A DNA stretch of 64,000 nt from Sulfurifustis variabilis (GTDB lineage Bacteria; Pseudomonadota; Gammaproteobacteria; Acidiferrobacterales; Sulfurifustaceae): assembly GCF_002355415.1 (NCBI RefSeq), contig NZ_AP014936.1, positions 2,666,001 through 2,730,000 of the forward strand, read 5' to 3'. Of this stretch, positions 1,082 to 15,843 are shown in pieces (the first letter of the stretch is position 1; each line of letters opens with the position of its first letter). The translations under genes and the position numbers were made by a program. The notes under the pieces are model-generated. The model was not told the origin of the DNA. It ran no database searches and saw nothing but the letters and a program-made list of their open reading frames with translations.

Positions 1082-2668
1082 TCATTTCCAGGACAATATT
1101 TTGCGTGCGTTCTGACCCGGAAACTTGACCAGGGCAATCCCTGGGGGAAGAGCGCGATCTGAGAAGTCCTCTATGCGCATGCGTCGGCCGAAGGCACCGT
1201 CCAATGTTTTTACGCTCGATGAGCTTAGCGAAAAGACCCCAACCGTTCCCATCTGCTCCAAGAAATCATCCTCTTCCTGGTCGAAATCATCCGCGCTTTG
1301 AGACAAGAGCATGACGATCCCGCCTTTAGACGCTGACTTTCTTACAAGCGAGCTAAGTGCTCCGTGCCGATAGCGCAAGATTTCGACTGCCTCATCGACA
1401 ATTAAGAGATGTCTCAACAAACGGTTGCCGGCTTTGTCTACGCCACTATCGGGCAGCGACATAAAGAATGAGTTGAGTGCGTCAAGAATCAAGAAGATAG
1501 CGAGCCGCTTCGGCTCGTCAGATGCGCTCCCGAAGCTGATAACCCACCTCTTTGAGAAAAATTCGGCCGGTGACATCGTCGGCCGCATCATATTCAGCGA
1601 CGTGATGGCGTTGAGTTTCGCACCAATACTGCCGATTGATTGGCGTGATTGCTCCGCTACGTCTGTAAGCGCCTGCAAAACATCGTCCAGGGTAATGGGT
1701 CGACGCTGTCCCCCGCGGCTTTCTAGCGCTCGTCTTCCTTCAAGTAGGGCCAAGACCGCCTGACGCAGTAGATCTAGTTTGATGTCACCTTTGGCCCGTA
1801 TGCATTTTTGAAAGGAGTCTTGGAACCCAATTGCAAGCTGCGCGAGTTGCTGTTCTTCAGCCGTCGGCGAAGACCAAAGAAAGTCAAGAGGAACCGGGAC
1901 TTTGGGTACATCCAGCGCGCGTATCCCGGGAAAAAACGCCTCTAGCGTTCGATCGCCCCATTCCGACTTGCGAACCAGTGCCCCGTCTTTTACGAACTCA
2001 CCTTTCGGGTCAATAAGTAACAGCGGGAGGTCCGCTGTTACTATCACCTGCCGGGCTATGTCTAATCCTGTCCGGGTCTTACCTGATCGGGTTTTGCCGA
2101 GAATCGCTAAGTGCGGGGAAACGCCTGGCCGATTAACGGTGTAGCTTAACTGTTCTCCCGAGTCAGGATCGATGCTTTCCGATCCGAAGCGAATGGAGAG
2201 GGCGCCCTCCTTTTCTTTGAACGTGTCGATGCTACCACTTGTTCGAGTGCCCGTAGGTACCATGCCTGCGAGTCTCACAACGAAATCCACGTCAGCTTTC
2301 TTCACGTCTTCGTAGTCTTGCTTGAGGAGCATTGCACCACGATGCCAATGTCCCTCGACTAAAGAGCGAAAACTCGCTGCGTCAGCAGGTGGCGCTTCCG
2401 AAGCAATGGCGATTAAGCAAGACCAGATATCAGCATCGTCACCAAACAGGTGGGTGCCCTCGATCGCGTTCCCCATCTCGGCATCTTGAGGAAGGCGGAT
2501 ATCGCCAGTGTTTAATTGCTCGGACAGGCTTCTCCCTATTGCGAGCTTCGCCACCGTGGCCTTATCCCCGGGGATGAGCGTGGACCGAAGATCACCGAGA
2601 AATTCCTCCGCTTCCTTGGTCGGGCGATAACGAAGACGATCAATTCGGGTCAAGTTAAATTCGGTCAT
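1082..2668 (-). CDS. DndE-like domain fused to HerA/FtsK-type ATPase
   Basis: A 528-residue protein. The C-terminal two thirds is a HerA/DUF87-type DNA-translocating ATPase: Walker A GKTRSGKT near residue 190, the IDPKGEF motif near 220, Walker B LLIVDEAVEIL near 425, and a sensor-like LLSQSADDF. The first roughly 135 residues resemble DndE: an N-terminal LRYRPTKEAEEFL segment, an AIGRSLSEQ helix, EMGNAIEG, and HWHRGAMLL. DndE is normally a separate protein of about 110-120 residues that binds nicked DNA in phosphorothioation. The gene starts 2 bp after dndD stops, so it is the last of four tightly packed genes. The ATPase call is firm; the DndE assignment rests on motif resemblance and needs a profile search. 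HerA-like pumps also occur in DNA-degrading defence systems such as DptH. Confidence 0.8.
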   Translation of the reverse strand: MTEFNLTRIDRLRYRPTKEAEEFLGDLRSTLIPGDKATVAKLAIGRSLSEQLNTGDIRLPQDAEMGNAIEGTHLFGDDADIWSCLIAIASEAPPADAASFRSLVEGHWHRGAMLLKQDYEDVKKADVDFVVRLAGMVPTGTRTSGSIDTFKEKEGALSIRFGSESIDPDSGEQLSYTVNRPGVSPHLAILGKTRSGKTRTGLDIARQVIVTADLPLLLIDPKGEFVKDGALVRKSEWGDRTLEAFFPGIRALDVPKVPVPLDFLWSSPTAEEQQLAQLAIGFQDSFQKCIRAKGDIKLDLLRQAVLALLEGRRALESRGGQRRPITLDDVLQALTDVAEQSRQSIGSIGAKLNAITSLNMMRPTMSPAEFFSKRWVISFGSASDEPKRLAIFLILDALNSFFMSLPDSGVDKAGNRLLRHLLIVDEAVEILRYRHGALSSLVRKSASKGGIVMLLSQSADDFDQEEDDFLEQMGTVGVFSLSSSSVKTLDGAFGRRMRIEDFSDRALPPGIALVKFPGQNARKILSWK

Positions 2669-2670
2669 AT

Positions 2671-4746
2671 TCAGGCGCCAAAATAGCTATCTTCGATCAC
2701 GGTTGATTCCCCGCTACCCTCTTCCTTGCTTTCGAAAGTCACTAGAAATGTCTTTAAAATCTTTGGATCGAGTCGCTCTCGGTAATAGTCTGATATCTCC
2801 TCGTCGTGCGACAGGAAGATCACTTGCCCCCGAGCGGCTTCGGCTACGTATCGCAAGACTCTTTCGCGATACTTGGAGTCCATGTTGCCAACAGGCGTGT
2901 CAATCACAATCGGTGCCTCCTGCTCTGACACATCAGCGACAGCAAGAGTGAAAGCTAATCCGAAAGCACGTTTCTGCGCTCCCGACAGACTGGAAACCAA
3001 TACGATTTCGCCCGACGGCCCCTCTAGTCTTGGTGGAGTATCGGGATCAAACCTCACGACAAAATTCCGATACTCGTCCGAAACCATTTGCCTGAAGTGT
3101 TCTGTGCACCTTTCCTCTAGCGATTCCTTGCAAAGCGGGACAAGATTGTCTTTTGCTTCGTCCACCGTCGCTCTCACTCGGTGCGCCACATCGAGTTTCT
3201 CTAGCACTGGCCTTTCGACTGCTCGACGTTTCTCCATCTGCCCTATTGAGCCCTTGAGGTCCCGGATTCTTTCTTGAAGTCCTCGTTCTCTGGTTTCTAG
3301 GCCAAGCAATTCCGAATCAATCGATTTAGCGGTTTCTCGAGTTTCGTCAACCGATTTCGTGAGCGCCGCGAGCTGTGGTTCTATGTCCTTAATTCGCTCG
3401 TACTTTCGTTCTGTTTCTCTTCGTCTCGTAACAGTGTTATCCCAACGAATTGCAGCGTCGGCTAGCGCGCCTCCGCCGATCGCCTGACAACGTCCAAGCT
3501 TACTCAATACCGCTGCGCGATCCGCCTCTCGGAGAAAATGAAGTTTATATTCCTCGGCGCATCCGTCTGGCGGCGGACTCCACAATGCCTCGAGAGCCTT
3601 TTCCAGTTTGCTTCGCAGCTGATGGATCTGCTGCTCGCTAAGAGGCGGCTCTACATCACCTGCCCCCTTGGTCGGCAGCACAGACTCAATAATTTTTGAG
3701 GCCTTGCCACTCGCTTCTTCCTTGAGAATTAGCCACCGATCCCGAATTTGCTCAGCACGCAGGTTTGATCGAAGTAACTCGATATTGCGGCTCATAGCTA
3801 AAGGCAGCGCAATAGAGGCTAAGCCCGTAATCAGCTCCTGCTTAACGGCTGCTTCCTCGGACTGTAATGCCGCCAGTGTGCGAGCGTACTCTTCGATATC
3901 GGCCGTCGAGTCACCTAATAGCTGCCGCAAATCATTCAACAGTCGCTGATGGTCCGCATCTGTCGCATCCATTTGCTTCCGCTTCTTGGTCAGTTCGTTT
4001 TCTATTTCTTTCAACTGATCCTTGGCTTCTTCGAGCTCCTGACGTTTCTGGTCTAGCTCGTCAATTCGTACGTTCCCTGTCTCGCGGCGCAAATTAGTCG
4101 TCTCGTTCTGTATAAACGTTCGGAGGCTATCGCTTAACCTGTCGAGAATCCCAGTTCCATAAAGCGTGTTAACCGCATCCAGAAGAGCTCTGTGACCCGC
4201 GGCATCAACCCGCTCTTGTGCCTGTTCCCCGTCAAAAAAGAAGCATGCCATTACGTTCCAGGGAAAAAGAAGATCCGAAATCTTGTCATTGGCGTCCTGC
4301 CAGGTGGGATAGATTTTCTTTTGCGAGTTGACTTCAATTAGGACCTCTTCGCCGTCCCTGCTGTTCAGATCGCGAATCCTTCCACCTTTGTTGAAGTTCC
4401 AGCGACGTTGGATAAGAATCGTGTCGCCTTCGTTCTCAAACCGAAGTGACACTGAACAATGTGGTTCGTCCTGGCGTCTTGCGGGTCGATGGATTATCTG
4501 CTCCATCAGACTCTTGTAATTTCGATTCTGATCCTCATCTATTCCGGATAACCGTACCCCTTCAATCAAATGCATAGCCTCTCGCCCGAAGAGACCAAGA
4601 TAGAGTGCTATCAAGAGGGAGGTCTTTCCCGTTCCGTTCTGTGCACCGACGAGAATAATGTTTTTGCGAGAGCCAGGTCTCGGTAGGGTAAATATGGCAT
4701 TCCGATAGCTTCGCCAATTTCGTACATGCACTTCCTTAAGAAACAT
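2671..4746 (-). CDS. dndD: DNA phosphorothioation ATPase DndD
   Basis: A 691-residue SMC/Rad50-like ATPase, close to the usual DndD length. Walker A is GAQNGTGKT (residues 34-42). A long charged coiled-coil centre covers about 200-560. The ABC signature-like SSLSGAQKRAFGLA, Walker B APIVIDTPVGNMD and the H-loop VIFLSHDEE are near the C-terminus. DndD is thought to power DNA remodelling or nicking for sulfur insertion by DndC. Its start overlaps the small upstream gene by 11 bp, indicating translational coupling. GC content is below that of the flanking chromosome, consistent with acquisition by transfer. An RloC-like or RecF-like ATPase is less likely given the DndC partner. Confidence 0.93.
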   Translation of the reverse strand: MFLKEVHVRNWRSYRNAIFTLPRPGSRKNIILVGAQNGTGKTSLLIALYLGLFGREAMHLIEGVRLSGIDEDQNRNYKSLMEQIIHRPARRQDEPHCSVSLRFENEGDTILIQRRWNFNKGGRIRDLNSRDGEEVLIEVNSQKKIYPTWQDANDKISDLLFPWNVMACFFFDGEQAQERVDAAGHRALLDAVNTLYGTGILDRLSDSLRTFIQNETTNLRRETGNVRIDELDQKRQELEEAKDQLKEIENELTKKRKQMDATDADHQRLLNDLRQLLGDSTADIEEYARTLAALQSEEAAVKQELITGLASIALPLAMSRNIELLRSNLRAEQIRDRWLILKEEASGKASKIIESVLPTKGAGDVEPPLSEQQIHQLRSKLEKALEALWSPPPDGCAEEYKLHFLREADRAAVLSKLGRCQAIGGGALADAAIRWDNTVTRRRETERKYERIKDIEPQLAALTKSVDETRETAKSIDSELLGLETRERGLQERIRDLKGSIGQMEKRRAVERPVLEKLDVAHRVRATVDEAKDNLVPLCKESLEERCTEHFRQMVSDEYRNFVVRFDPDTPPRLEGPSGEIVLVSSLSGAQKRAFGLAFTLAVADVSEQEAPIVIDTPVGNMDSKYRERVLRYVAEAARGQVIFLSHDEEISDYYRERLDPKILKTFLVTFESKEEGSGESTVIEDSYFGA

Positions 4747-4960
4747 CGCGGACCCCGGCCTGGTGTTCTTCGATGAAGTCGCTTATTGCGGCACTGAACT
4801 CTTGTGAGATTCCCACCTGCCGTCCTCGGCCCAAATTATCTCGCTGAATTTCAATCAGGCTGCGGAGTAGGTCGAGACTGACGTTGTGTTCCTGACAAAT
4901 TCGTTGAAGCACGTTTTTTGCCTTTTTGTCCGCAAGCAGCGGCAACGCTCTACGTGTCAT
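4736..4960 (-). CDS. Small Dnd-associated helical protein
   Basis: A 74-residue, mostly helical protein (LLADKKAKNVLQRICQE, then LDLLRSLIEIQRDN) placed between dndC and dndD. It overlaps dndC by 4 bp and dndD by 11 bp. It is too short for DndE and shows none of that family's basic surface motifs. It resembles the roughly 75-residue products that databases label DNA modification system-associated small protein; this is from memory and unverified. The tight overlaps argue that it is a real gene and probably a subunit or adaptor of the DndC-DndD machinery. Its function is unknown. Confidence 0.75.
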   Translation of the reverse strand: MTRRALPLLADKKAKNVLQRICQEHNVSLDLLRSLIEIQRDNLGRGRQVGISQEFSAAISDFIEEHQAGVRDVS

Positions 4961-6081
4961 CTCCCCTCCCCGATAAGTTGGAGCAAGCGATTTGCTCTAT
5001 TCAGAACGTGTTGGGACGCATCGTCTCGCCAAATTTCTTCGATGCGGCGTATTTCAGCTGATGAAATAAGTTGTACCTTCACCTCGTCTTGCAGAGCGAG
5101 CAATCTGTCCAGCACGGTCTTCCTTGCGTCGAACTTAAGCGGGCCCAGTCCAGCTTGCCCGTTTCGACGTTCCGTCATCCGGTTTTCTTCGGTGTAACAG
5201 AAATCTTTGAGCCAATCCCTGAAATTGGCCATCGGCTCTAGGCGCTCAAACCCCTTCTCCATGGCATTCCTGAACGACTTATCTTTGTCGACAACCGTGC
5301 AGGTCCAACAACCAAAACGGATCGAATTGCTGCCGCAGGACGGTTGAGTATCGGTATCTATAACAACCGGACATTCCCCGCCCGTGGCGTCTCGATACAA
5401 TTTCATTAGCGCTTGGTGGGACCCTGCCCAGGGTGGCGCGCAAGCAAATAAGTATTCCCAAACTTCATCTGTCGTCAGCTCGAGAATCGGGCGGAAGACA
5501 AAACAGCCGGGCAGGTCGTTATGCGGGTTTAACCGGCCGGTCCCATCGTACCGCTTTGCCGATTTTGCGCGGGCGGTCGACTCGGACCGTCTGACCCCAA
5601 GAAGGAGGATTACTTCTCCGCTCTCTGTAATACGCTCCCGGATATAGTCAGTCGTTGGCCGAATCTTCATTCGATCGGTACACCAACGGAAAAACCGAGT
5701 GGGCGGCGGATAACCGCGGCCAATAAGGTTCACCCAAAAGGTCTGGTCTACTAGTGGTGTCGTTTTATGGATTTCGATCGGCAGACTGAGGTCCGGAAGA
5801 GACGTGGAGAGCGCAGAAAGAAGGGATTCCACATATGTTTGAACGATTGGCGATTCAACAAGCGTATCGTTTGCAATTACATGAACTCGGCGGGAACGTT
5901 CCGACCATGGAAGTTCGAGAAGCGTTTCAACAACTAGCTGCAGGACAAGCGTGGAATCCTTTCCCCCCGAGAATCCGATTATCCACGGCTTGTTGTGTGC
6001 AGCGCGATACTCCTCCTTAATGTCTGTCTTGATGGCTAGGATCTTCGCGGATAGTTCATCTATCTCTGGTCCGCCCTTCAT
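4957..6081 (-). CDS. dndC: DNA phosphorothioation sulfurtransferase-like DndC
   Basis: A 374-residue PAPS-reductase-like PP-loop protein. The ATP-binding SGGKDS loop is at residues 38-43. Cysteines able to hold the DndC iron-sulfur cluster lie in RFFRWCTDRMK and in CGSNSIRFGCWTC. DndC acts with DndD, DndE and a cysteine desulfurase to replace a non-bridging backbone oxygen with sulfur. I chose the ATG at 6081 because a GGAGC ribosome site precedes it; an in-frame ATG at 6138 would add 19 residues. It is the first gene of the minus-strand cluster. No dndA (desulfurase) or dndB (repressor) is visible here, so sulfur delivery must come from elsewhere, for example IscS. Confidence 0.95.
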   Translation of the reverse strand: MKGGPEIDELSAKILAIKTDIKEEYRAAHNKPWIIGFSGGKDSTLVLQLVVETLLELPWSERSRRVHVIANDTLVESPIVQTYVESLLSALSTSLPDLSLPIEIHKTTPLVDQTFWVNLIGRGYPPPTRFFRWCTDRMKIRPTTDYIRERITESGEVILLLGVRRSESTARAKSAKRYDGTGRLNPHNDLPGCFVFRPILELTTDEVWEYLFACAPPWAGSHQALMKLYRDATGGECPVVIDTDTQPSCGSNSIRFGCWTCTVVDKDKSFRNAMEKGFERLEPMANFRDWLKDFCYTEENRMTERRNGQAGLGPLKFDARKTVLDRLLALQDEVKVQLISSAEIRRIEEIWRDDASQHVLNRANRLLQLIGEGR

Positions 6082-6294
6082 CTTGCTCCGCTCTTTTTGG
6101 ATCGTTGCTGGGAAGGCTGGCCCCCGAGAACTGAGCATCCAGCCGGCCTATTTCCCCGCCAGGTGGCGGGAAACTGTAACACAAAGGACGCGGACTGAGC
6201 GCCGCCTTTATCTGCTGGCTCGCAAATCCCGGCCACTCGGACGGTGCGCCTAAGGGATTAATTCGACGTGCTTTTACTGCGCAAAACCAAAGTC

Positions 6295-6505: not shown

Positions 6506-6518
6506 GTGACTATAGTCC
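6506..6518 (+). promoter_or_regulatory. C-box-like half operator upstream of controller gene
   Basis: GTGACTATAGTCC is identical to the left arm of the palindrome at 6862-6889 and contains the 10-bp palindrome GACTATAGTC (6508-6517). It sits 57 bp before the likely controller start. No well-matched second half-site follows it. Controller proteins of restriction-modification systems bind GACT-AGTC type boxes, so autoregulation is likely. Confidence 0.65.
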
Positions 6519-6574
6519 GTCGACCGACGAGACAGACCTGCCCTACCTTACCCCACCTCTTCCGGGGCAAAACG

Positions 6575-6808
6575 TTGAAAGTCGAGAAAGCGTTCGCTCT
6601 TGTTCTTCGGGATATGAGAAAGAAGAAGAACCTGTCTCAGGAGCAATTGGCTCTTAACAGTAATCTCGACCGAACGTTTATTTCGCTTCTGGAACGCGGA
6701 CTGCGGCAGCCCTCCCTTACCACCATCTTCCAACTGTCCCGCGCACTCGATACGTCGGCTACCGAGTTGATTTCGACCGTCGAGACGAAGGTCCACGCGC
6801 GGTCCTGA
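6575..6808 (+). CDS. Restriction-modification type controller (C) protein, Xre family
   Basis: From a TTG start at 6575 (GGGGC in front) this gives 77 residues, the normal size of C proteins such as C.Esp1396I (79). The helix-turn-helix spans LSQEQLALNSNLDRTFISLLERG, and the SNLDRTFIS recognition-helix region is typical of C proteins. Earlier in-frame starts would run through the operator at 6506 and are unlikely. No restriction or methyltransferase gene of an RM system is adjacent: Dnd lies to the left and a CsrA-like gene to the right. Operators with the same core occur before this gene and before csrA, so it probably regulates itself and csrA. A plain Xre regulator is the alternative. Confidence 0.85.
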   Translation: MKVEKAFALVLRDMRKKKNLSQEQLALNSNLDRTFISLLERGLRQPSLTTIFQLSRALDTSATELISTVETKVHARS

Positions 6809-6861
6809 AGGCACGTCCCTTTCGTTTCTGTGGCCCTCACGAGGTTAACGATCTCGCTTGC

Positions 6862-6889
6862 GTGACTATAGTCCCCGGACTATAGTCAC
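6862..6889. promoter_or_regulatory. Perfect C-box palindrome in front of csrA-like gene
   Basis: The arms GTGACTATAGTCC (6862-6874) and GGACTATAGTCAC (6877-6889) are perfect inverted repeats separated by CC. Each arm contains GACTATAGTC, so two dimer sites lie 14 bp centre to centre. That is the layout of controller-protein tandem boxes known from C.Esp1396I/C.AhdI operators. The site is 42 bp upstream of the csrA-like start. Confidence 0.85.
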
Positions 6890-6930
6890 GGCGACGAGCA
6901 GGTCAATTAACGTGACACGGGAGGGCGCGG

Positions 6931-7143
6931 ATGCTGATACTGGGCAGGAAACGCGGCGAGACCATCAGAATCGATCTGATGGAGGACACGAACCCGCTGA
7001 CACCTGTCGGCGAGATATTTGGGCGAGGACCGATTCAGATTCTGGTGCTGAGTGTAAGAGGGAGGCAGGTGAAGCTTGGCATTCAGGCGGGCCCGGGCTT
7101 TCGCATCCTTCGGAATGAGCTTTCCGAACAGTTGGTCTCGTAA
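6931..7143 (+). CDS. csrA: Divergent CsrA/RsmA-type RNA-binding regulator
   Basis: A 70-residue protein beginning MLILGRKRGETIRI and ending with VKLGIQAGPGFRILRNEL. It matches CsrA in the N-terminal beta strand (Leu4), in VRGRQVKLGI, and in the Arg of the C-terminal RNA-binding strand. Canonical CsrA is about 61 residues. The extra length is an insertion of about 12 residues after the first strand (MEDTNPLTPVGEI). A strong GGGAGGG ribosome site precedes the ATG. It follows the perfect C-box pair, so transcription is probably set by the upstream controller protein. It is probably an accessory paralog rather than the housekeeping CsrA, comparable in principle to CsrA paralogs carried by integrative elements. 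Confidence 0.88.
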   Translation: MLILGRKRGETIRIDLMEDTNPLTPVGEIFGRGPIQILVLSVRGRQVKLGIQAGPGFRILRNELSEQLVS

Positions 7144-8194: not shown

Positions 8195-8533
8195 TTAGCC
8201 AGCGGCACGGGAGCGTCCGGAGGCGGCAATTACCCGCGCAAGATCACGTTTGTTCGCGCCAAGCGAAAAGAACGAGCGCACGATGAGATCAAGCGATACG
8301 GAGGGATCTCCGGCCTCGATCTTGGCGACGCGCGACTGGCTGGACTTCAGGTGCCGTGCCAGCTCCACCTGCGTCATGTTGCGCGCCTCTCGGCGCTCGC
8401 GCAGCTTGCGTCCGAGCTGTTGTTTGAGCTCGATGTAGCGCGACTCCTCGGGGGAGAGGCCGAGAAAATCGTTCGCGTTACCGACTTTCCATCCTTTGCG
8501 CTCCAACCGCTTTCTCTTGGCTCTATTCCTCAT
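8195..8533 (-). CDS. higA: HigA-type Xre antitoxin
   Basis: A 112-residue protein from the ATG at 8533 (MRNRAKRKRLERKGW). A helix-turn-helix covers NMTQVELARHLKSSQSRVAKIEAGD in the middle. Its start overlaps the end of the upstream toxin gene by 11 bp. Toxin-first gene order, a Gp49-type toxin and an Xre antitoxin define a HigBA module. The antitoxin neutralises the toxin and represses the operon, most likely through the palindrome at 8869-8896. Confidence 0.88.
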   Translation of the reverse strand: MRNRAKRKRLERKGWKVGNANDFLGLSPEESRYIELKQQLGRKLRERREARNMTQVELARHLKSSQSRVAKIEAGDPSVSLDLIVRSFFSLGANKRDLARVIAASGRSRAAG

Positions 8534-8858
8534 ACAACCCCAATCTGCGCTTATACACCTCAATGACCTCGGCTGGCGTCTGGCGCGTGCTGTTCTTGAA
8601 GACTTCCAGTATCACGATGGCGTCCGGATCGATTCGATACACAATACGCCAGCTCATACGCTCATCATTGGCCCGCAACTCGTGGCATCGGGGTCCGATC
8701 GACGGCATCGGCCGCGAGTGCGGCATTCCGATCCTGTCTCCTCTCTGCAAACGGCGGAGGAGAAATCCCGCTTCCAATCGGGCAGCCGGCGAGAAGGGCG
8801 GCGTTTTCACCTCTCCCTTGAGCCAGACTAGAGGCTTGTCCTTATTCTTCTCTCCCAT
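8523..8858 (-). CDS. higB: HigB/Gp49-like (RelE superfamily) toxin
   Basis: A 111-residue protein with the phage Gp49-like domain: RRLQRGDRIGMPHSRPMPSIG, HELRANDERMSWRIVYRID and IVILEVFKNSTRQTP. The family comprises ribosome-dependent mRNA interferases. It is first in the two-gene operon, and a perfect operator palindrome lies 11 bp upstream of the start codon. Nothing looks truncated. Confidence 0.9.
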   Translation of the reverse strand: MGEKNKDKPLVWLKGEVKTPPFSPAARLEAGFLLRRLQRGDRIGMPHSRPMPSIGPRCHELRANDERMSWRIVYRIDPDAIVILEVFKNSTRQTPAEVIEVYKRRLGLYEE

Positions 8859-13358: not shown

Positions 13359-13557
13359 CCCTATTCTCCTTCGGGGCAAGTGTTAAAAACGATTAGCACA
13401 AGCACCGTGTATAGCAAGATCTTGTATCGCGCCGTCCCTTTCCCGCGCCCGCTGCGCCGTGGCGGAGAAAAATCGGGACAGGAGGACAGAGGCAGATCTA
13501 TTTTTAAGGCGAAGCGGGACCGGCGCGACCGGGCGTGCGCGGTTACACCGGTCGCGA

Positions 13558-13945
13558 TCAGTGCCGCGCCTCCAGAATGAGATTGAACGGCGTCTCCGCC
13601 GCCCGGCGGAACTGCCGGAACCCGCCGGACTTCGCCACCTCCCGCAGCCTCCCCTCCCCCGCCTGCGCGCCGAGCGCCGTGCCCACTTCCTGGTTGAGCG
13701 AGGTGGGCACGCAGACCAGCGTCGAGGCGGAATAGTAGAGGCGGCCGACCGGGTTGATGTTCTGCTCGAGGGCGTCGTGGGCGAAGGGCTCGACGATCAT
13801 CCACGCGCCGCCGGGCTTGAGCGCCTGGTGGATGTGACGCGCGGCGCCGGCCGGGTCGCCCATGTCGTGCAGGGCGTCGAAGCAGGTGACGAGGTCGTAG
13901 TCCTTGCCCGGGAAGTCCTTGGCGGTGGCGACTTCGAAGCGGACG
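13558..13945 (-). pseudogene. Truncated duplicate of the methyltransferase 3' region
   Basis: This 388-bp segment matches 14792-15179 except for one substitution that I found by eye (13852 versus 15086). It begins exactly at the methyltransferase stop codon and covers the last 129 or so codons. It has no start and no cofactor-binding GCGHG motif. On the right it breaks abruptly into the HEPN/MNT module. Confidence 0.9.
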
Positions 13946-14009
13946 CGCTGCGAGCACGTCGACCTCTCGACATTCTCGCGTCGTAGGCCGACGCCTGGCC
14001 CGATCGCGA

Positions 14010-14345
14010 CTACTTCAACTGCTCTTTGACCAGACGAGAGAGAACAGGCAGATCGGTTTGCACGACGCCCCAAACGGTGTCGTTGCGAATCGTGGCGTAC
14101 CCATGAATTAGGATATTGCGAAAAGCGATGATGCGGCGGTAATCCGGGATGCGTTCGGCGAGATCGGCGTCCACTTTATGCAGTCGACTCAGCGCTTCGC
14201 CCACGACTTCGAACTGGCGTTCCACGGCCGATCGCAGCATTTCGTCCGAGAGATAATCCTCCAGCGATCGCCCTTTCGTGAAAGTCTCCAGCTTTCGGCA
14301 GGCCTCCCGAATGTCGTAGAGATACTTCTGTACTTCAGGCTGCAT
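14010..14345 (-). CDS. HEPN-domain toxin (DUF86)
   Basis: A 111-residue protein beginning MQPEVQKYLYDIREA. The HEPN active-site motif FRNILIHGY (R-x4-H) is followed by a Tyr-containing turn, and the ERIPDYRRIIAFRN helix is typical of DUF86. It pairs with the nucleotidyltransferase gene upstream, whose end overlaps this start by 11 bp. In HEPN/MNT modules the HEPN protein is an RNase toxin and the MNT partner inactivates it by (oligo-)adenylylation at the Tyr near the motif. A longer frame extends upstream to 14564 but only as an overlap with the partner. Confidence 0.92.
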   Translation of the reverse strand: MQPEVQKYLYDIREACRKLETFTKGRSLEDYLSDEMLRSAVERQFEVVGEALSRLHKVDADLAERIPDYRRIIAFRNILIHGYATIRNDTVWGVVQTDLPVLSRLVKEQLK

Positions 14346-14643
14346 AGAGCAGAGCCTTGGACCGCTCGACCGATCGCAGGAAATAGGGATTGTCGCTTGC
14401 CCCTTCTTCAACGAGGTCGATAGGCCTGTGGAACAGGTCCTGGAGTGCCAGAAGAAGTCCGAAATAGGCATCCGCGCGCTCTGCCGGCGAAAGCGGATGA
14501 AATTCGACCAGGAAATCGAGGTCGCTCCGGCCCGGTTCGAACTTGCCGGTAGCCGCCGAACCAAAGAGCGCCAGCCGGCGGACCTGGTGCCGCCGACATA
14601 GATCCTCCAAGGCGGAGTGCTGTTCAGCGATGAGCGGATGCAT
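14335..14643 (-). CDS. MNT-type nucleotidyltransferase antitoxin
   Basis: A 102-residue minimal nucleotidyltransferase starting MHPLIAEQ. The family signature is present as LALFGSAATGKF followed by SDLDFLVEF, giving the GS-x(n)-D-x-D active site. A third acidic residue lies in RPIDLVEEG. It is translated first and overlaps the HEPN toxin by 11 bp. The pair sits between two 388-bp direct repeats of a methyltransferase gene, so it looks like a cassette inserted or trapped there. Confidence 0.92.
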   Translation of the reverse strand: MHPLIAEQHSALEDLCRRHQVRRLALFGSAATGKFEPGRSDLDFLVEFHPLSPAERADAYFGLLLALQDLFHRPIDLVEEGASDNPYFLRSVERSKALLYAA

Positions 14644-14791
14644 AACCGGGTCCTCGATTAAAGCTAAAGATAACCGATAACACGCCTGCCCGCGCGGGTC
14701 CCGGGATGAAAAAACATCACCTCGAGGGCAAAGGCGCGTAATGGGGCCCGGGAGTGAGCCGGGCCCCGACAACAAGCGGATTCGGAAAGCC

Positions 14792-15179
14792 TCAGTGCCG
14801 CGCCTCCAGAATGAGATTGAACGGCGTCTCCGCCGCCCGGCGGAACTGCCGGAACCCGCCGGACTTCGCCACCTCCCGCAGCCTCCCCTCCCCCGCCTGC
14901 GCGCCGAGCGCCGTGCCCACTTCCTGGTTGAGCGAGGTGGGCACGCAGACCAGCGTCGAGGCGGAATAGTAGAGGCGGCCGACCGGGTTGATGTTCTGCT
15001 CGAGGGCGTCGTGGGCGAAGGGCTCGACGATCATCCACGCGCCGCCGGGCTTGAGCGCCTGGTGGATGTGACGCGCGGCGCCGGCGGGGTCGCCCATGTC
15101 GTGCAGGGCGTCGAAGCAGGTGACGAGGTCGTAGTCCTTGCCCGGGAAGTCCTTGGCGGTGGCGACTTCGAAGCGGACG
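14792..15179. repeat. Right copy of a 388-bp direct repeat
   Basis: Matches 13558-13945 at an offset of 1234 bp with one visible mismatch. The HEPN/MNT module and its promoter (13946-14791) are enclosed between the copies. Recombination between the repeats would delete the module and leave one intact methyltransferase end. Confidence 0.9.
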
Positions 15180-15843
15180 TTGTCGCCCGCGCCGTGCTTT
15201 TTCGCGTGCCCTCTCGCCTCCTCGATCGAGGCGTCGTGGAAGTCGAAGCCGATGAACTCCGAGTTCGGGAAGGCGTCGGCCATGATGAGCGTCGAGAAGC
15301 CGTGGCCGCAGCCCACGTCGGCCACGCGGGCGCCGGCTTTCAGCTTCTCCACCACGCCGTCGAGCGCGGGGAGCCACTTCTCGACGATGTTCGCTTCATA
15401 GCCTGGGCGGAAGAACCGGGCGATGGCGCAGAAGACGCACCCGGGCTGGTCGCCCCAGGCGACGCCGCCGCCGGTCCGGAAGGCCGCCTGCACCTTGGGC
15501 CGGTTCTCGACGTACCCCGCGGCGCAGTCGAAGGCGCCCACGACGTAGTACGGGCTCGTCTCGTCCACGAGCACGGGCGCGTGCTCGGGGGTAGCGCGAA
15601 GCGCTTCGTCGTCGGATCATATTCGAAGTAGCGGGCGGCGGCGTGGGCCGACAGCCACTCGCGGAGATACCGCTCCGCGAGGCCCGTGGCCTGCGCGAGC
15701 TCGACGGAGGTCATCGGACCGCGTTCGTGCAGGGCCTTGTAGATGCCGAGCTGCGAGCCGATCTGCACCAGGCCGATGGCGTAGGCGCCGCCGAGGTCGT
15801 TCATGACCCGGCCGAGGAAGTCGTTCAGCTTCTGTTCGTTCAT
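14792..15843 (-). pseudogene. SAM-dependent methyltransferase with one frameshift
   Basis: The protein is complete if one base is restored. The N-terminal part (from 15843, MNEQKLNDFLGRVMNDLGG, AAGGAGA ribosome site) contains a winged-helix/dimerisation domain. It is in a different frame from the C-terminal catalytic part, which runs from about 15590 to the stop at 14792 and carries VADVGCGHGFSTLIM for cofactor binding and an FNLILEARH end. Near 15592 the reading CCCCCGAGCAC lacks a G: CCCCCGGAGCAC would restore PPEHAPVLVDE. It could be a genuine inactivation or a sequencing error. Target unknown. The AraC regulator at 16270 is divergent and may have controlled it. Confidence 0.85.

Follow-up and report, generated by a model that had tools for sequence, protein, structure and literature searches.

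Controller (C) proteins of restriction-modification (R-M) systems first activate their own promoters and later repress them (PMC4824078). In C.Esp1396I, the residues that contact the bases are R35, T36 and R46 (PMC4041747), and the contacted bases are the GAC and GTC flanking TATA together with an outer TG (PMC3758141). Transcription factors encoded next to CsrA paralogs are known from a different setting: the lvrRABC cluster of Legionella consists of four genes, among them lvrR, whose product has SOS-regulator-like domains, and it is tied to type IV secretion islands (PMC3864950). In the open-access library that was searched, we found no paper that links a controller protein to CsrA; the single co-mention of the two (PMC9144972) is incidental.

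We analyzed a stretch of 64,000 nucleotides from the genome of Sulfurifustis variabilis (hereafter the window; positions refer to it unless another locus is named), in which a first-pass annotation had proposed that an orphan controller of the R-M type, with operators before its own gene and before a csrA paralog, controls an RNA-binding regulator. The proposed arrangement appears to be supported by the operator boxes, which are found only here in the genome. We consider it probable that an orphan controller of the C.BamHI class supplies the transcriptional component of a two-gene cassette that has an insertion-type CsrA as its output, and that the controller regulates itself and gates csrA, probably by repression. 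The features of the locus are collected in the table.

Table. Features of the C gene and csrA locus, in positions of the window
Feature	Position	Strand	Evidence or remark
C gene operator	6508..6525	+	strong C-box GACTATAGTC at 6508-6517, CGTC, then GAC of the degenerate second box
Degenerate second box of the C gene operator	6522-6531	+	second box visible in relative L208
Putative C gene without R-M partner, 77 aa, TTG start	6575..6808	+	HTH_3, PDB matches, PADLOC models, tree
Possible csrA -35, TTGCGT	6858..6863	+	abuts C-box 1; spacer 17; consensus match only
Imperfect palindrome enclosing both csrA C-boxes	6861..6890	.	28/30 positions symmetric
C-box 1, csrA operator	6864..6873	+	1 of only 3 exact copies in the genome
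C-box 2, csrA operator	6878..6887	+	14-bp period, as in L026
Possible csrA -10, TATAGT	6881-6886	+	core of C-box 2; consensus match
Insertion-type csrA, 70 aa	6931..7143	+	PF02599, E 1e-12
Codons for the insertion of about 18 residues between strands 1 and 2	6976..7029 (approximate limits)	+	alignments; conserved P.TPVGELF..GP

The HTH gene at 6575-6808 is, on sequence grounds, a genuine controller gene. Its product is a small single-domain XRE/HTH protein (HTH_3, E 5e-15, residues 11-65). C.AhdI, C.BclI and C.Esp1396I are its best matches in the PDB, and the top-scoring PADLOC models describe control proteins of R-M systems. Of the relatives whose role is known, the closest is the C gene that belongs to a BamHI-type R-M system of the Desulfocapsa plasmid NC_020305.1 (53% identity, E 9e-17). 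The operator of that gene, GACTATAGTCCGTCGACC, agrees in all 18 bp with window positions 6508-6525. The Desulfocapsa operator lies 69 nt before the ATG and the C-box of the window 67 nt before the TTG at 6575, and for this reason the gene most likely starts at that TTG and not at 6506. A gammaproteobacterial relative (L208, 54%) carries GACTATAGTCCGTCGACTGACAGTC, with a second box 14 bp on that is degenerate in the window. In a tree of 31 XRE domains, many other branches of which lack resolution, the window protein pairs with the Desulfocapsa C protein (94/84) and the pair falls within a group of C-like plasmid proteins (95/92). The three base-contacting residues of C.Esp1396I are conserved in the alignment as R33, T34 and R44, Y37 corresponds to F35, and the boxes of the window contain the contacted GAC-TATA-GTC and outer TG.

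As had been claimed, the gene lacks a restriction or methylase partner among the neighbours examined (dndC on one side, csrA and a DUF4256 gene on the other), and since no R-M gene was seen adjoining it, we take it to be an orphan controller and not a component of an R-M system. The character of a fast-switching timer ascribed to it is taken over from R-M theory and would apply by analogy. Close relatives of the protein are present in 12 other genomes, in none of which the relative stands beside a csrA, a finding that weighs against the cassette.

The motif GACTATAGTC, claimed to occur once before the C gene and twice before csrA, was indeed recovered by a motif search of the window at 6508-6517, 6864-6873 and 6878-6887. 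A search of the whole genome (3,958,814 bp in one contig) yields exactly these 3 copies. With at most one mismatch allowed, the window contains 4 matches compared to a mean of 0.43 in shuffled sequences. Base composition leads one to expect about 1.3-1.7 single sites per genome but only about 1e-4 per 380 bp, which excludes chance as the source of the clustering of all three. The two boxes before csrA had been described as a perfect 28-bp palindrome; the 28-mer at 6862-6889 is symmetric at 26 of its 28 positions, with an asymmetric centre CCCG. We also looked for palindromes dispersed through the genome without a linked C gene; this possibility is ruled out, as the exact search finds this locus alone and so does a search for paired boxes that tolerates up to 3 mismatches.

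The csrA gene, previously read as divergent, is co-directional with the C gene. Its product scores 48.3 bits against PF02599 (cut-off 27) and 41.9 bits against the NCBIfam csrA equivalog TIGR00202, below the cut-off of 70.1 bits. The MLIL.R..GE start and the C-terminal LR.EL are conserved, and the canonical spacing of strands 1 and 2 is absent, being interrupted by the insertion. R6 and R61 (the equivalent of the R44 region) are invariant across eight homologs, which is only suggestive of dimeric RNA binding to GGA motifs. For the insertion-type protein, the predicted structure is of low confidence (pLDDT 58.6) and was set aside. The P.TPVGELF..GP insertion defines a CsrA subtype that is present in other Acidiferrobacterales and appears to be uncharacterised. 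The genome contains six csrA genes, three canonical and three of the insertion type, and an XRE gene adjoins all of the latter and one of the former. At a threshold of E 1e-10, insertion-type CsrA was detected in 22 of 369 sampled Gammaproteobacteria genomes, including Sulfurifustis variabilis and two others of Acidiferrobacterales; no homologs were found on plasmids. Insertion-type CsrA proteins with the motif MTV.ELF..GPI and without an XRE neighbour occur in scattered families of the sampled Gammaproteobacteria (for example, L162-L171).

Within Acidiferrobacterales, an XRE gene lies at most 300 bp from 22 of the 26 strong insertion-type csrA loci (E below 1e-19), mostly as an XRE-csrA operon, and most of these XRE partners are not of the C-box type; among the sampled insertion-type loci outside the order, only L161 has an XRE gene within 300 bp. 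Besides the window there are three csrA loci with C-boxes, and in two of them the boxes are degenerate. In L026 (MAG ES_Gamma_002, genome G423) the XRE gene, whose product is closest to C.BclI, is divergent from csrA and three perfect copies of ACTATAGT with a 14-bp period lie between them; the csrA copy itself is broken by short repeats. L161 (genome G577, from another family) has a similar divergent XRE gene and 3 boxes with a 15-bp period, 2 of them degenerate. The remaining locus, a second pair in the same genome as the window (at 901 kb), has a divergent XRE gene nearest C.AhdI (E 8e-16) and the degenerate intergenic boxes GACTATGGT, GACTATAAGT and GACTATAGGT. Pairs of a C-like protein and CsrA, which the first-pass annotation had suggested seeking elsewhere, thus recur in other genomes at L026 and L161.

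A search of the 369 Gammaproteobacteria genomes for ACTATAGT-N6/7-ACTATAGT matched 4 genomes. In both genomes with a 14-bp period the double box precedes an insertion-type csrA; for the pairs with a 15-bp period, in G508 and G491, the surrounding 1.5 kb contain no match to CsrA. Reversed-pattern controls also match four genomes and, consequently, single matches of the double-box pattern are near chance level. Viral contigs contain double C-boxes at 15 places; none of these adjoins a CsrA match, and one adjoins an unrelated HTH gene. Four types of XRE protein are separated in the tree: that of the window, the C.AhdI-like one of the second pair, that shared by L026 and L161, and that of the operons. 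This separation suggests more than one recruitment of C-like partners, with support limited by the short sequences.

These comparisons bear on the idea that the C gene is left over from a BamHI-type R-M system since lost and stands beside csrA by chance, the boxes before csrA being dead operators of lost genes. A gene that is R-M-like together with its own operator, and partnerless, fits this idea, but all 3 boxes are intact and occur nowhere else in the genome, and the same csrA subtype is accompanied by C-boxes and a C-like XRE gene at other loci, an outcome that chance decay would not yield. We therefore regard a relic as improbable.

Several arrangements were noted in passing at related loci. 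In L017 (9013-9706, genome 3151 kb) a canonical csrA has a divergent XRE gene with a C-box-like CGACTATAGCG upstream. GC-rich short repeats (CGCTCCTGCGCATCC..TGCGCCCGCGGCATT) break up csrA and the downstream XRE gene in L022, L024 and L026 (MAG CAMYII01), in several copies. An excisionase-like HTH_17 gene followed by the palindrome AATAGCACGATATCGTGCTATT lies ahead of the operon-type XRE-csrA pair in L016 (9987-10298); this arrangement precedes many operon-type pairs and is similar upstream in L021, L132, L135 and L137.

The direction in which the controller would act on csrA can be approached from the position of the boxes relative to candidate promoters. At three loci (the window, L026 and L161) the first box is immediately preceded by a TTGC.. 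hexamer, and 17-18 bp downstream of this hexamer (18 in L026 and L161) comes the TATAGT of the second box. In the second pair of the genome a box overlaps the region just past the best -10. Promoter-like matches at csrA in the window are weak, at 8-9 of 12, and have competitors: in another candidate promoter the first box serves as the -10, and the strongest match at the palindrome (10 of 12) is on the opposite strand and points leftward, away from csrA. At the three loci with the abutting hexamer the boxes would overlie the promoter of csrA, which makes repression by the C protein the likelier reading. The opposite possibility is that the box-bound C protein, as at the C/R promoters of R-M systems, brings RNA polymerase to a weak promoter lying downstream, ahead of csrA, so that CsrA would appear with a delay after entry into a new cell. 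The csrA operator shares the two-box, 14-bp period of the operator of the C gene, C proteins of R-M systems begin by activating their own promoters, and there is space for a promoter between 6887 and 6931. However, this space showed no good -10, the in-box TATAGT is a possible -10 at three loci, and both csrA boxes are perfect, whereas a weak second box is usual in the activating layout. Activation consequently seems to us doubtful, if well worth keeping in mind.

In the reading that we prefer, that of a controller gating csrA, a dimer of the C protein would bind the GAC-TATA-GTC boxes, as the identity of residues and operators indicates. At its own promoter, the strong box and the degenerate box 14 bp on would provide concentration-dependent autoregulation as in R-M systems, and at csrA cooperative binding to two perfect boxes with the same period would gate the promoter, more likely by repression, given that the TATAGT core of the box could serve as the -10 here as well as in L026 and L161. 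The CsrA-like protein would then act on mRNAs. The cassette would be a variant of a widespread Acidiferrobacterales module in which the same CsrA subtype is accompanied by an XRE gene, usually in an XRE-csrA operon, and C-protein types have apparently been taken into this module more than once. A broader proposal, which we advance tentatively, is that the insertion-bearing CsrA subfamily has repeatedly taken over R-M-type controllers, with their C-boxes, as its transcriptional input, the result being a portable DNA-then-RNA switch and possibly a closed loop in which CsrA acts on the controller mRNA. GGA motifs in the leaders are uninformative because ribosome-binding sites contain GGA.

The neighbourhood on the left offers another candidate target. 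The interval 1082-6138, on the minus strand, is a compact Dnd-type island that encodes DndC, a small Sp-DndD protein, a DndD/PbeC-like ATPase and a 528-aa protein in which a weak N-terminal match to DndE is followed by a HerA-type domain, possibly a DndE-HerA fusion. The GC content is 52% in the dnd-type genes, 53% in the C gene, 56% in csrA and 62-68% to the right of csrA; as the C gene and csrA are intermediate, they may have arrived together with the dnd genes. It had been suggested that the Dnd island could be the real client of the controller. In such a reading the C gene would belong to the island and regulate the dnd operon, and csrA would be incidental or act on dnd mRNA. The divergent orientation of dndC (4957-6138, minus strand) and the C gene and the tract of lower GC that spans the dnd genes through csrA are in line with this suggestion. 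Against it, dndC has no extra C-box, the nearest being that at 6508, and the interval separating it from the C gene yielded nothing promoter-like. Relatives of dndC occur in only 2 of 57 Acidiferrobacterales genomes, including Sulfurifustis variabilis. In the other genome dndC and csrA are on separate contigs, and the 1.5 kb around dndC contain no match to CsrA and nothing for XRE beyond a marginal match (11 bits). XRE-CsrA pairs, moreover, are common in genomes without dndC. With neither conserved linkage nor boxes to support it, we rejected the Dnd operon as the client and consider this explanation very improbable.

Two further observations concern the window to the right of csrA. Adjacent genes of the HTH_31 and Gp49 families (8195-8858, minus strand) are likely a toxin-antitoxin pair. 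At 13361-15574 a nearly identical methyltransferase reading frame, read from the translations, occurs twice (13558-14073 and 14792-15574), and the segment between the copies (14010-14775) contains nucleotidyltransferase- and HEPN-like ORFs.

C proteins are known as timers of restriction. If an intact C circuit indeed has an RNA-binding global regulator as its output, the switch is portable beyond restriction. The finding would also draw attention to a CsrA subfamily, apparently uncharacterised, whose members in one order usually come with a transcription factor of their own, and the C/CsrA pair would be a ready test system for the coupling and re-partnering of regulators at the DNA and RNA levels.

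Compared with known systems, the C gene of the window resembles those of the R-M controllers C.BamHI, C.AhdI, C.Esp1396I and C.PvuII in size, fold family, base-contacting residues and box sequence, and in having its own operator at a similar distance from the start codon. It differs in that no endonuclease or methyltransferase gene accompanies it and in that a second, stronger operator precedes the gene of an RNA-binding protein. The output protein is like the CsrA/RsmA family (including RsmN/RsmF) in matching PF02599 and keeping the conserved termini, and unlike it in carrying the insertion and scoring below the NCBIfam cut-off for csrA. The extra element of RsmN is placed elsewhere than the insertion between strands 1 and 2 of CsrA of the window type. 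Plasmid integrase loci (L156, NZ_CP071900.1; L158, NC_010679.1) share with the window a C-like HTH gene and paired C-boxes without an R-M system, but there the next gene, directly after the boxes, is a site-specific recombinase of the integrase type and the boxes, GACAATAGTC/GACTATAGTC, have a 17-bp period; at these loci controller proteins apparently govern recombinases. The L156 locus adjoins the shufflon gene pilV. Legionella lvrRABC is alike in that the gene of a repressor-type transcription factor is clustered with a CsrA paralog, and unlike in that no C-boxes are reported there (PMC3864950); linkage to type IV secretion or to an integrative element was not seen among the annotated neighbours in the part of the window that is annotated. 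Set beside these systems, the C/csrA pair looks like a recurring two-layer regulatory cassette.
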